A stretch of DNA of 64,000 bases, taken from Sutcliffiella horikoshii. GTDB taxonomy: Bacteria; Bacillota; Bacilli; Bacillales; Bacillaceae_I. This document shows positions 50,340 through 52,808 of this stretch, piece after piece (position 1 is the first letter of the stretch; the number at the start of each line of letters is the position of its first letter). The stretch lies in the NCBI GenBank assembly GCA_001636495.1, contig KV440964.1, positions 1,814,666-1,878,665 on the forward strand, in the 5' to 3' direction. A model generated the notes under the pieces. That model saw only the letters and a program-made list of their open reading frames with translations, made no database searches and was not told the DNA's origin. Both the position numbers and the translations under genes were made by a program.

Positions 50340-50340
50340 A

Positions 50341-50380
50341 CGAAAAAAAACTAGGCTGAGCGGCCTAGTTTTTTTTCGTT
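50341..50380. terminator. bidirectional terminator between the Opu operon and the RRNPP regulator
   Basis: A perfect stem of about 16 bp, CGAAAAAAAACTAGGC and its complement, with a six-base loop between convergent genes. Confidence 0.85.
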
Positions 50381-50387
50381 AATCAAT

Positions 50388-51275
50388 TTAATCAATAAGG
50401 ATGGATAACTCATCAATTTTTTCTTTAATATGCTTAACAAACACCTTATTCTCCTGGATGATAAAAATTTGAATAGATTTATTATAATATTCCATGGCAA
50501 TATCATGATTAAGTAGCAGGCTGAAATTGTAGCCGATATGGTAGTAAAGGTTTCCTAGACCATATAAGCTGTTCTGACTTACACACCACTTTACCGCGAG
50601 TTTACAAGTTTCGTTCGATTCTTCTAATTTGTTCATTCTTGTTAATGTTTTTGCTTTGTTATATAAAATTTTTGTTTTAATTGTAGGATCGTGATGGTAA
50701 GGAATTTTCAAATAGCTGTTAATGGCAAGGTTGAATATTTTTAATGCTTCATCGAAATTTTTAGTCTCAAAATGCACAATAGCCATGCTATTAAGAATTT
50801 CTATTTCTCTCTCTCCTAACAATTTAGAGGTCATTTTTGTTAGGTCCAGGGCACTTTGTAATAGTCTTAAAGCCTCGCGTTTATTCTTTTTTAAATGATA
50901 GACGCATACCCCTTCGGTAGATAGTAGAAATTGCTTGTTTTTACGGTTGTTGACGAATAAAGGGTTTTTTCTCTCATTCTCGACTATAGTGTAAACCTCT
51001 TCGAATTCACTGCGATTTAATAATTCTTTAACCTGTGTGAAAACCTCATTTACGTAGGAAAGTTGAGGGTTTGTAGCTAAATCATAAAAATAATTTATAT
51101 CCACTCCAAGCCTTTCTGCTATATAATATAATGTGTTAGCAAGAGGATACACCTCCCCCTTCTCAATCTTACTGATCTGTGACTGTGTACAGATCCCTTC
51201 ACTCAACTCAGCTTGTGATAAGTTTAGTGCAGATCGCAGGATTTTTATCTCTTTCCCAATTAACGAAAAATCCAC
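50388..51275 (-). CDS. PlcR/NprR-like (RRNPP) peptide-responsive transcription regulator
   Basis: A 295-residue regulator with two parts. Residues 6-62 are an XRE-type helix-turn-helix (IKILRSALNLSQAELSEGIC, SQISKIEKGEVYP). Residues 70-295 are helical repeats of the TPR kind (ILNSMAIVHFETKNFDEALK, GLGNLYYHIGYNFSLLLN, AMEYYNKSIQIF). This is the RRNPP architecture in which TPRs bind a short imported peptide. The length fits PlcR (285) better than NprR. It starts at a GTG after AGGATGTGA. It is divergent from a 40-residue secreted peptide gene, its likely ligand source. The gene is visibly AT-rich, with A/T-ending codons. Confidence 0.85.
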   Translation of the reverse strand: MDFSLIGKEIKILRSALNLSQAELSEGICTQSQISKIEKGEVYPLANTLYYIAERLGVDINYFYDLATNPQLSYVNEVFTQVKELLNRSEFEEVYTIVENERKNPLFVNNRKNKQFLLSTEGVCVYHLKKNKREALRLLQSALDLTKMTSKLLGEREIEILNSMAIVHFETKNFDEALKIFNLAINSYLKIPYHHDPTIKTKILYNKAKTLTRMNKLEESNETCKLAVKWCVSQNSLYGLGNLYYHIGYNFSLLLNHDIAMEYYNKSIQIFIIQENKVFVKHIKEKIDELSILID

Positions 51276-51325
51276 AATATATCACATCCTAACTAATAAA
51301 ATATTCCTAGAGTTATAATTTGAAA

Positions 51326-51378
51326 CGAAAATCATAGTAAACAGAAGAAAAACATAGATTTGTTCGAAAAATCATTCG
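51326..51378. promoter_or_regulatory. candidate operator between the RRNPP regulator and its peptide gene
   Basis: CGAAAATCATA (51326-51336) and CGAAAAATCATTCG (51365-51378) are near-identical and 39 bp apart, in the shared 199-bp spacer. The second includes two TTCGA half sites. These are candidate binding sites for the regulator. A TAAAAT at 51412-51417 could be the peptide gene's -10 box. Confidence 0.35.
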
Positions 51379-51474
51379 ATAACGGGGGATTTGCGTTTTT
51401 TTAATATAGTGTAAAATACTTATTAAAGATAGCTTTCCAGTAATCCAAATAAAAAGTAGAAAGAGGTTATGATA

Positions 51475-51597
51475 ATGAAGAAGTTCATCTTAACATTTCT
51501 AGTAGTTTCTTTAACGTTGTTTGGCGCAAGTGCAGTTACTTCTCATGCTGGTCCATCTGATGACTACAAAACGAATGAGTTACCACCACTTTATTAA
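51475..51597 (+). CDS. secreted signalling pro-peptide (PapR-like), 40 residues
   Basis: A short gene encoding a complete Sec signal peptide (MKKFILTFLVVSLTLFGASA, cleavage likely after Ala20 or Ala25) and a 15-20-residue mature tail ending TNELPPLY. PapR of the B. cereus group has the same layout (about 48 residues, signal peptide, C-terminal ..LPFEF/Y) and its processed C-terminal heptapeptide activates PlcR. By analogy the active form here would be close to NELPPLY. AAGAGG lies eight bases before ATG 51475; an in-frame ATG six bases upstream is too close to it. It is divergent from the regulator and 26 bp before the next gene. Confidence 0.75.
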   Translation: MKKFILTFLVVSLTLFGASAVTSHAGPSDDYKTNELPPLY

Positions 51598-51623
51598 TTA
51601 TAATAAAAAGGAAGGTTGATATC

Positions 51624-51860
51624 ATGTCGACGACAAGTACGAACACTTTTGAGCTTACTTGCTTTTGGTTTATCGTAGTAGATCGTGAGCAGAAGGCACG
51701 TAGGCGTTACAGGGTTGCCCAGCTTGTGGATTACAAAAATAAAACTTATTCAGAAGTCTCTAAGTGGTTTGAAACATTGTTTCAAGAGTACAGTGTAGTC
51801 AGAGTGGGCAAAGGTACCATCCCTTCCAAATTGAAAAAATACCCTTATATTCAATATTAA
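51624..51860 (+). CDS. unrecognised 78-residue protein in the peptide-signalling cassette
   Basis: A small soluble basic protein (MSTTSTNTFELTCFWFIVVD...) with an alternating strand at residues 9-20, a basic RRRYRVAQLV strand and an amphipathic helix (TYSEVSKWFETLFQEY), ending in KKYPYIQY. There is no signal peptide and a single cysteine. AAAGGAAGG precedes the ATG. It is 26 bp after the pro-peptide gene and ends at a strong terminator, so the two are almost certainly one transcript. I know no family. It may be the output of the signalling pair. Confidence 0.7.
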   Translation: MSTTSTNTFELTCFWFIVVDREQKARRRYRVAQLVDYKNKTYSEVSKWFETLFQEYSVVRVGKGTIPSKLKKYPYIQY

Positions 51861-51861
51861 G

Positions 51862-51890
51862 ATCTTCCTATTTCGATAGGAAGATTTTTT
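51862..51890 (+). terminator. terminator of the peptide transcript
   Basis: A perfect 9-bp stem ATCTTCCTA with a six-base loop, followed by six Ts, starting two bases after the stop codon. Confidence 0.85.
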
Positions 51891-52094: not shown

Positions 52095-52808
52095 GTGTCA
52101 AGCATATTAGCATCGGTAGGATACTTAATCAAAGAACTTGTTTTCCTAGTTTCTTACGTCAAAAACAATGCATTTCCACAACCATTGTCATCTGGGGATG
52201 AAGCGAAATACCTCAAATTGATGGCAGAGGGAAATGAAGAGGCAAGGAATCTACTTATTGAACATAACCTGCGGCTTGTGGCACATATTGTAAAAAAGTT
52301 TGAAAATACTGGGGAAGACTCGGAAGATTTGATCTCCATCGGGACTATAGGTTTGATCAAGGCGATAGAAAGCTTCCACTCCGGAAAAGGGACGAAGCTG
52401 GCGACCTATGCGGCAAGATGTATAGAAAACGAGATACTGATGCATCTCAGAGCCTTGAAAAAAACGAAAAAAGATGTATCGTTGCATGACCCGATAGGTC
52501 AGGATAAAGAAGGAAACGAAATCAGTCTGATAGACGTCTTGAAATCAGAGTCCGAAGACGTTATAGATACCATTCAACTAAATATGGAGCTTGAGAAAAT
52601 TAAGGTTTATATTGATGTGCTAGATGAAAGGGAACGGGAAGTGATTGTTGGCCGGTTCGGTCTCGACCTGAAAGACGAAAAAACGCAGCGGGAAATAGCC
52701 AAAGAACTCGGAATCTCTAGAAGCTACGTCTCACGGATCGAAAAGCGTGCCCTCATGAAAATGTTCCACGAATTCTACCGCGCCGAAAAAGAAAAGAAAA
52801 AACAATAG
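52095..52808 (+). CDS. sigK: RNA polymerase sigma-K factor (pro-SigK), uninterrupted
   Basis: Late mother-cell sporulation sigma factor, 237 residues. The N-terminal pro-sequence ([20 protein letters not shown]) is hydrophobic and is removed by SpoIVFB. Region 2 is seen in [21 protein letters not shown] and [20 protein letters not shown], and region 4 in [14 protein letters not shown] and [20 protein letters not shown]. The coding frame is continuous, with no skin-type element. It starts at GTG 52095, five bases after GGAGGTG. It is preceded by 234 bp from the peptide cassette with no other gene. Confidence 0.95.

Follow-up and report, generated by a model that had tools for sequence, protein, structure and literature searches.

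A divergent PlcR-type receptor with a predicted peptide signal in Sutcliffiella: an apparently exchangeable pair beside a near-invariant small gene

A compact group of three genes in Sutcliffiella horikoshii raises the question of whether it encodes a self-contained quorum-sensing system and, if so, whether the unit was acquired or which part of it moves. The genes lie in the window, the 64,000-nucleotide stretch of contig KV440964.1 analyzed here, where a first-pass annotation had described a regulator, a divergent 40-residue secreted protein and a third small gene on the peptide strand, bounded by strong terminators, AT-rich relative to their surroundings and next to sigK. All elements of this layout were recovered (Table 1). 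Both flanking hairpins fold strongly (−24.1 and −23.1 kcal/mol on the two strands, z about −7.5, on the left; −14.5 kcal/mol, z −4.5, on the right); a simple terminator scan listed only the right-hand one of the two, and the left-hand one is supported by folding. The third gene starts 26 nt past the end of the propeptide gene, with a ribosome binding site of the AAGGAAGG type. GC content is 33.3% in the cassette versus 43.7% in the opu gene. The left neighbor is an opu-type glycine-betaine transporter operon, and to the right lie a sigma factor at about 52095-52805 with sigma-70 regions 2 and 4, which we take to be sigK, and, at a greater distance, an M3 oligopeptidase F gene.

Table 1 Features of the cassette and its borders (positions in the window).
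Feature	Position	Strand	Basis or remark
Bidirectional intrinsic terminator	50340..50379		Between opu-type gene and regulator; hairpin of 18 (+) / 17 (-) pairs
PlcR-type RRNPP regulator (HTH + TPR), 295 aa, GTG start	50388..51275	-	Pfam; PlcR homology
Shared divergent spacer, 199 bp	51276..51474		Conserved blocks on regulator and propeptide sides
Predicted pheromone precursor, 40 aa, Sec-type signal peptide	51475..51597	+	ELP conservation; start and ribosome binding site
Third gene, 78-aa protein, proposed constant output	51624..51860	+	Conservation in family; synonymous > non-synonymous changes
Intrinsic terminator closing the propeptide-third gene transcript	51859..51888	+	13-bp stem, then T run

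The regulator combines the N-terminal helix-turn-helix and TPR-like repeats that had been annotated (HTH_19, 42.8 bits; TPR_12, 44.7 bits) with a match to RNPP_C of 56.7 bits (cut-off 26.5), the order of domains expected of RRNPP(A) receptors, and its length falls within their 250-500 aa. When it was compared with solved proteins, PlcR (2qfc) matched residues 5-289, nearly the whole length (E 2.2e-19, 73 bits), and was the only full-length match, the other three being short HTH-type chains. The AlphaFold2 model consists entirely of helices (pLDDT 91.3, pTM 0.73). The protein is the sole RNPP_C match in its genome and is 98% identical to the regulator of S. horikoshii biET1, the nearest named relative. 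Alignment to PlcR, counted by hand, placed the retained YNxAK residues at N206 and K209 (PlcR N201 and K204), of which N206 is at least 90% conserved among 26 sequences; N205 and K208 of PlcRa are probably their equivalents. In the same kind of count against 2qfc, PlcR Lys87, Lys89, Gln237 and Tyr275, reported to grip the PapR glutamate (PMC6568020, PMC3519770), corresponded to N87, S89, N242 and F279. This loss is at least coherent, because the predicted signal NELPPLY lacks glutamate at the corresponding position. By sequence, the protein belongs among the PlcR-type RRNPP receptors.

The divergent gene encodes the candidate signal, and its product (MKKFILTFLVVSLTLFGASAVTSHAGPSDDYKTNELPPLY, 40 aa) has, by inspection, the basic start and hydrophobic core of a Sec-exported precursor and ends in NELPPLY. 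We placed the start at 51475 in preference to an in-frame ATG at 51469, which is only 2 bases away from GAGG and which 6 of 15 genus orthologues lack. A match to NCBIfam PhrK (18.1 bits, below the cut-off of 35) was taken as signal-peptide likeness only, and that identity was rejected. The exported-looking 40-residue protein of the first-pass annotation is kept in all 17 family orthologues (the window, 14 other genomes of the genus and two other genera), in each case beside the regulator. ELP is invariant at the C-terminus of all 17, which end in NELPPLY/H, NELPSIH, TELPTRH, QELPYQH, KELPPQH or NELPHRH. NELPPLY is thus a PapR-type C-terminal heptapeptide whose acidic-Leu-Pro core matches the [DE]LP of PapR7, ADLPFEF (PMC3519770, PMC6568020); PapRa7 is given as CSIPYEY (PMC3519770).

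Regulator and propeptide are, as annotated, encoded on opposite strands across a shared spacer, and alignment of 15 orthologues revealed two conserved blocks in it, at about 51301-51317 on the regulator side and about 51404-51420 on the propeptide side. The former overlaps the presumed −10/start region of the regulator. The latter contains a conserved TAAAAT/TATTAT −10-like element (TAAAAT at 51412-51417 in the window) with no clear −35. Activator-dependent promoters often have no clear −35, and this arrangement is as expected for such a promoter. The search for an operator gave little to build on. Only short arms emerged from an inverted-repeat scan of the spacer, and a palindrome at about 51362-51383 was rejected as an operator since it is not conserved among the orthologues. 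The spacer motif ATTCCTANANTTATA has one exact site in the genome and 19 sites with up to one mismatch versus 18 in the control, and no regulon could be deduced from a motif that is not enriched. No match to the PlcR box (TATGNAN4TNCATA) with up to two mismatches falls wholly inside the spacer (51276-51474). Ten exact boxes occur in the genome versus one in the control, none of them in the cassette, but base composition alone leads us to expect about nine by our own arithmetic and these sites were not built on.

It had also been suggested that the AT-rich unit was possibly acquired, and here the annotation was not supported. Of 18 genomes from the GTDB family, 17 carry the three genes together, and the cassette is AT-rich in every one of these (29.5-35.8% GC), so its composition is an old property of the locus rather than a mark of recent arrival, and acquisition from outside was rejected. 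At E 0.01 neither plasmids nor phages contained a match to the third gene, and viral contigs gave no confirmed one. Regulator relatives (30-38% identity) were found at E 1e-20 in nine plasmid records, including one from Sutcliffiella, and in no phage at the same threshold. The coordinates of the Sutcliffiella plasmid match are those of a PlcR-like paralogue on a plasmid-like contig (L020).

What moves seems instead to be the receptor-signal pair inside the cassette. Segments of the locus were compared in 136 genome pairs, with pairs above threshold listed; the "opu" segment of G016 and G017 is non-homologous (about 40%) and therefore uninformative. The clearest mosaic is G013, the genome with the QELPYQH signal. 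Compared with G010, G012 and G004, its left flank is 86-97% and its third gene 98-99% identical, whereas the stretch from the regulator through the spacer to the propeptide is only 56-68% identical. Its right flank is 92-97% identical in G010 and G012; in G004 an identity of 96-97% reaches as far as the first half of sigK, after which the sequences are non-collinear (48-56%). The divergent block of G013 is instead nearest to that of G009 (71-81%), a genome whose flanks and third gene are 66-85% identical to those of G013, and at the protein level L018 (G013) is 82% identical to L017 (G009) versus 60% to L007 (G010). Milder mosaics were observed for G008-G014 (opu 92, regulator 83, propeptide 68, third gene 98, sigma factor 99% identity), G006-G007 (89, 80, 68, 98 and 94%) and G006-G005 (90, 79, 69, 97 and 95%). 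As the regulator is generally less conserved than the flanks in many of the 136 pairs, these may reflect fast divergence, an explanation that does not easily extend to G013, whose block has a closer relative elsewhere. Regulator, spacer and propeptide thus seem to form one exchangeable unit, and the simplest reading seems to be that receptor and signal were replaced together by homologous recombination between relatives, as would be expected of a matched pair under diversifying selection.

The third gene behaves differently. A single good match was found per genome in 15 of the 16 genomes of the genus, as well as in G016 and in G017; among the 18 family genomes it is absent only from G001 (80% complete), and it lies within the cassette in all 17 that have it. 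In 14 aligned sequences 37 of 78 columns are invariant. Because synonymous codon changes outnumber non-synonymous ones in 10 of 10 orthologues (for example 21 to 5; weakest 5 to 3), we accept the gene as coding, and the codon pattern indicates that it is under purifying selection. The predicted protein has no evident signal peptide and was modeled as a small bb-a-b-a fold (pLDDT 84.7). Searches of Pfam, NCBIfam, PHROG and PDB sequences gave no convincing match; the best PDB-sequence row, ribosomal protein uL29 (E 0.0014 over 36 positions), and the best PHROG match (E 0.035) were both judged to be chance.

In a sample of 397 Bacillales genomes the third gene was found in 17 by sequence and in 18 by profile. 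The extra genome, G044 (E 2.4e-4), belongs to another family, and its homologue likewise follows a divergent propeptide and a PlcR-like regulator. A widened profile also matched G086, of the same genus, in which the propeptide and the third-gene homologue lie on one side of a transposase gene and two tandem regulators on the other; near a second, weaker match in G086 (L151, E 3.5e-4) neither a propeptide nor a regulator was seen. Matches thus occur in 2 of 7 genomes of this genus; counting only clean genomes with a completeness of at least 90%, they occur in 2 of 4. The predicted signals there look different (GFGHYHG and GFGYIHG), which argues that the third-gene family is not bound to one signal. 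Moreover, where the pair changes, the third gene remains that of the surrounding chromosome, which makes a part in signal recognition unlikely and favors an output; that it is a constant output we regard as roughly an even call.

The divergent layout had been set against that of PlcR-PapR, in which the peptide gene lies downstream in the same direction. The divergence is real, but it is no oddity of this locus. In the order sample, the 13 regulators from outside the family that scored best (L096-L108, of which L097 is the same sequence as L042) all have a divergent ELP propeptide. A further 40 regions were hand-picked from the listed matches to cover families, not at random, and one was dropped as it contained no regulator. 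Propeptides were sought by a crude hydrophobicity and ribosome-binding-site rule and then judged by eye, and short hydrophobic ORFs that satisfied the rule without resembling propeptides (for example in L142) were scored "none". Among these 39 picked regulators, 16 have a divergent propeptide (12 ELP, 2 DLP, 1 QLP, 1 other), four a downstream propeptide (LP without the acid) and one a distant candidate; in the remaining 18 no adjacent propeptide was recognised by this procedure. Regulators with no recognised peptide gene, whose wide occurrence would have spoken against a module, are thus found among distant relatives but not within the family. On a tree of 85 regulators the "divergent" label requires 11 changes versus 23.6 in shuffles, and the four regulators with downstream propeptides form one group; one regulator (L143) was labeled "none" despite a possible divergent propeptide 689 bases off. 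Given this clustering and the state of the best relatives, divergence appears to be the normal layout of this branch. A survey of RRNPP systems describes those of Bacillales as encoding the pheromone immediately downstream (PMC9765709).

Several relatives encode more than one copy of the signal. In L011, L013 and L014 a second precursor with 9, 7 and 7 ELPxIH copies, respectively, lies between the propeptide and the third gene, and each of these arrays includes one ELPSIH, which is also the core of the single-copy propeptide. ELPPIY is repeated nine times in L096 and eight times in L098, and tandem copies are also present in L108 and L118. The largest precursor, a 230-aa divergent ORF upstream of the regulator in L125 (G115:C1:3701400-3706000), contains 14 near-identical ELPTMY copies, more than the up to six and up to eight per precursor mentioned in PMC9765709 and PMC11343458, respectively. 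Like those tandem-copy RRNPPA propeptides, these precursors hold several pheromones each; unlike them, three genomes here add a second precursor beside the single-copy one.

Downstream genes also differ among the extra-family relatives, comprising a family of about 100 aa, one of 69 aa and others, the last presumably protease-like, GAF-like and OsmC-like. The ~100-aa family (MxDIxMKVNPSFFDEECAIVFSFYF...) occupies the place of the third gene in L101-L107, L109, L110, L112, L113 and L116-L118; one member tested had no Pfam match, and profile comparison gave no kinship to the third gene, so that relation was rejected. In L108 (G088:C7 near 157737-158612) a five-copy ELPPVH precursor diverges from a PlcR-type regulator and is followed by a protease-like gene, which we take to encode a bacillolysin-type secreted protease; the layout recalls NprR-NprX, which adjoins its protease. 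Four downstream propeptides of PlcR-like regulators in family f44 (L121, L126, L129 and L133) end in LPAQH, LPNQH or LPSQH, and L121 adjoins an opu-type-looking transporter gene.

Overall, we consider it highly probable that the locus is a matched PlcR-type receptor and peptide signal, because of the full-length PlcR homology, the helical model, the invariance of ELP, the linkage of the genes and the apparent exchange of the pair. The proposed quorum-sensing module thus stands as regards the receptor, the exported-looking propeptide and the self-contained unit, but not as regards its acquisition. In the mechanism we propose, the 40-aa propeptide would be exported by Sec, trimmed to a C-terminal peptide around NELPPLY and re-imported, whereupon the peptide would bind the TPR domain of the divergent regulator. 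The bound regulator would act on the shared spacer and switch the propeptide-third gene transcript, and, if it worked like PlcR, positive feedback would raise propeptide and third gene together. The third gene would be the constant output of this switch, and regulator, spacer and propeptide its specificity unit, exchanged among relatives by homologous recombination. Tentatively, and at somewhat less than an even chance, we read the whole as a modular cassette in which an exchangeable receptor-spacer-signal "key" is combined with an unchanging output gene, the founding member of a new protein family: Sutcliffiella species would trade pherotypes under selection, the 78-aa effector would stay near-invariant, and the same effector family would be wired to GFGHYHG or GFGYIHG in another family.

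A possible but doubtful alternative accepts the receptor-peptide pair and makes the third gene a feedback modulator that binds the regulator, the peptide or the processing, the true targets lying elsewhere. A small, near-invariant protein without evident signal peptide that never leaves the cassette would suit this role, the variety of downstream genes in extra-family relatives means that position alone is no proof of output, and PlcRa is reported to affect over a hundred genes (PMC3519770). However, a partner that binds receptor or peptide should co-vary with the swapped pair, whereas the third gene keeps with the flanks at 98-99% identity, and no candidate operator was enriched elsewhere in the genome. 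The sign of regulation could also be the reverse, the regulator repressing the divergent promoters until the peptide releases it, as in some Rgg or PrgX systems. The conserved block over the presumed −10/start of the regulator lies where an autorepressor site might be, but we judge this version unlikely, as the propeptide promoter, with its −10-like element but no clear −35, resembles many activator-dependent ones and the closest characterized relatives, PlcR and PlcRa, are described as peptide-activated (PMC3519770, PMC6568020).

Still less probable, and in our view very improbable, is that the small secreted protein, perhaps structural or bacteriocin-like, is not the signal of the regulator, which would then be an orphan XRE/TPR repressor. 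The picked distant regulators with no recognised propeptide would fit this; the invariant ELP core and its likeness to PapR, the tandem ELPxxH/Y copies of several relatives and the apparent exchange of regulator and propeptide as one block all argue against it and for the matched pair.

PlcR-PapR of the Bacillus cereus group is like the proposed matched pair in its HTH and TPR receptor of similar length, which aligns whole-length, and in its Sec-type propeptide with a C-terminal heptapeptide of the form x-[DE]-L-P-x-x-aromatic/His. It differs in its distant sequence, its co-directional downstream peptide gene, its PlcR box and the glutamate with its binding residues, all absent here, the box from the spacer; the cassette has a dedicated third gene. 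PlcRa-PapRa of B. cereus, a PlcR paralogue, has papRa upstream of plcRa (PMC3519770), but PapRa has 93 aa with an internal signal and the PlcRa target is abrB2. Receptor and signal also vary together in pherotypes, of which four PlcR-PapR classes are reported from the B. cereus group (PMC6568020). Here, by contrast, the variation is an intergenomic mosaic whose breakpoints bracket regulator to propeptide and leave the third gene constant. Streptococci, too, reportedly have transferable pherotypes. Literature searches on Sutcliffiella quorum sensing and peptides and on ELPPxx strings turned up no description of the system, though supplements of RRNPP surveys may list it. A PlcR-PapR-type receptor and signal are known, while gene order, absence of the PlcR box, third gene and swap behavior set this system apart. 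PlcR-PapR-type signaling is known mainly as a virulence switch; if our reading is right, it would extend to a broad range of environmental Bacillales that use an ELPxx(H/Y/F) signal code. The cassette would then offer, in environmental spore-formers, a small natural system whose pheromone specificity can be separated genetically from its output, and both the divergence and spread of receptor-signal pairs and the role of a near-invariant small protein could be tested directly.

Two further observations concern the genus. Several Sutcliffiella genomes contain a second RNPP system (L022-L027); its regulators are, like L020, PlcR-like paralogues with divergent propeptides that end in DDPGIGWRY or PTLPSED, and several genomes therefore seem to carry two signaling systems. 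In G004 (L006; G004:C17 near 186000) the sigK frame breaks after ...CIENEI and is then non-collinear with its sister genomes, as if a skin-like element interrupted sigK.
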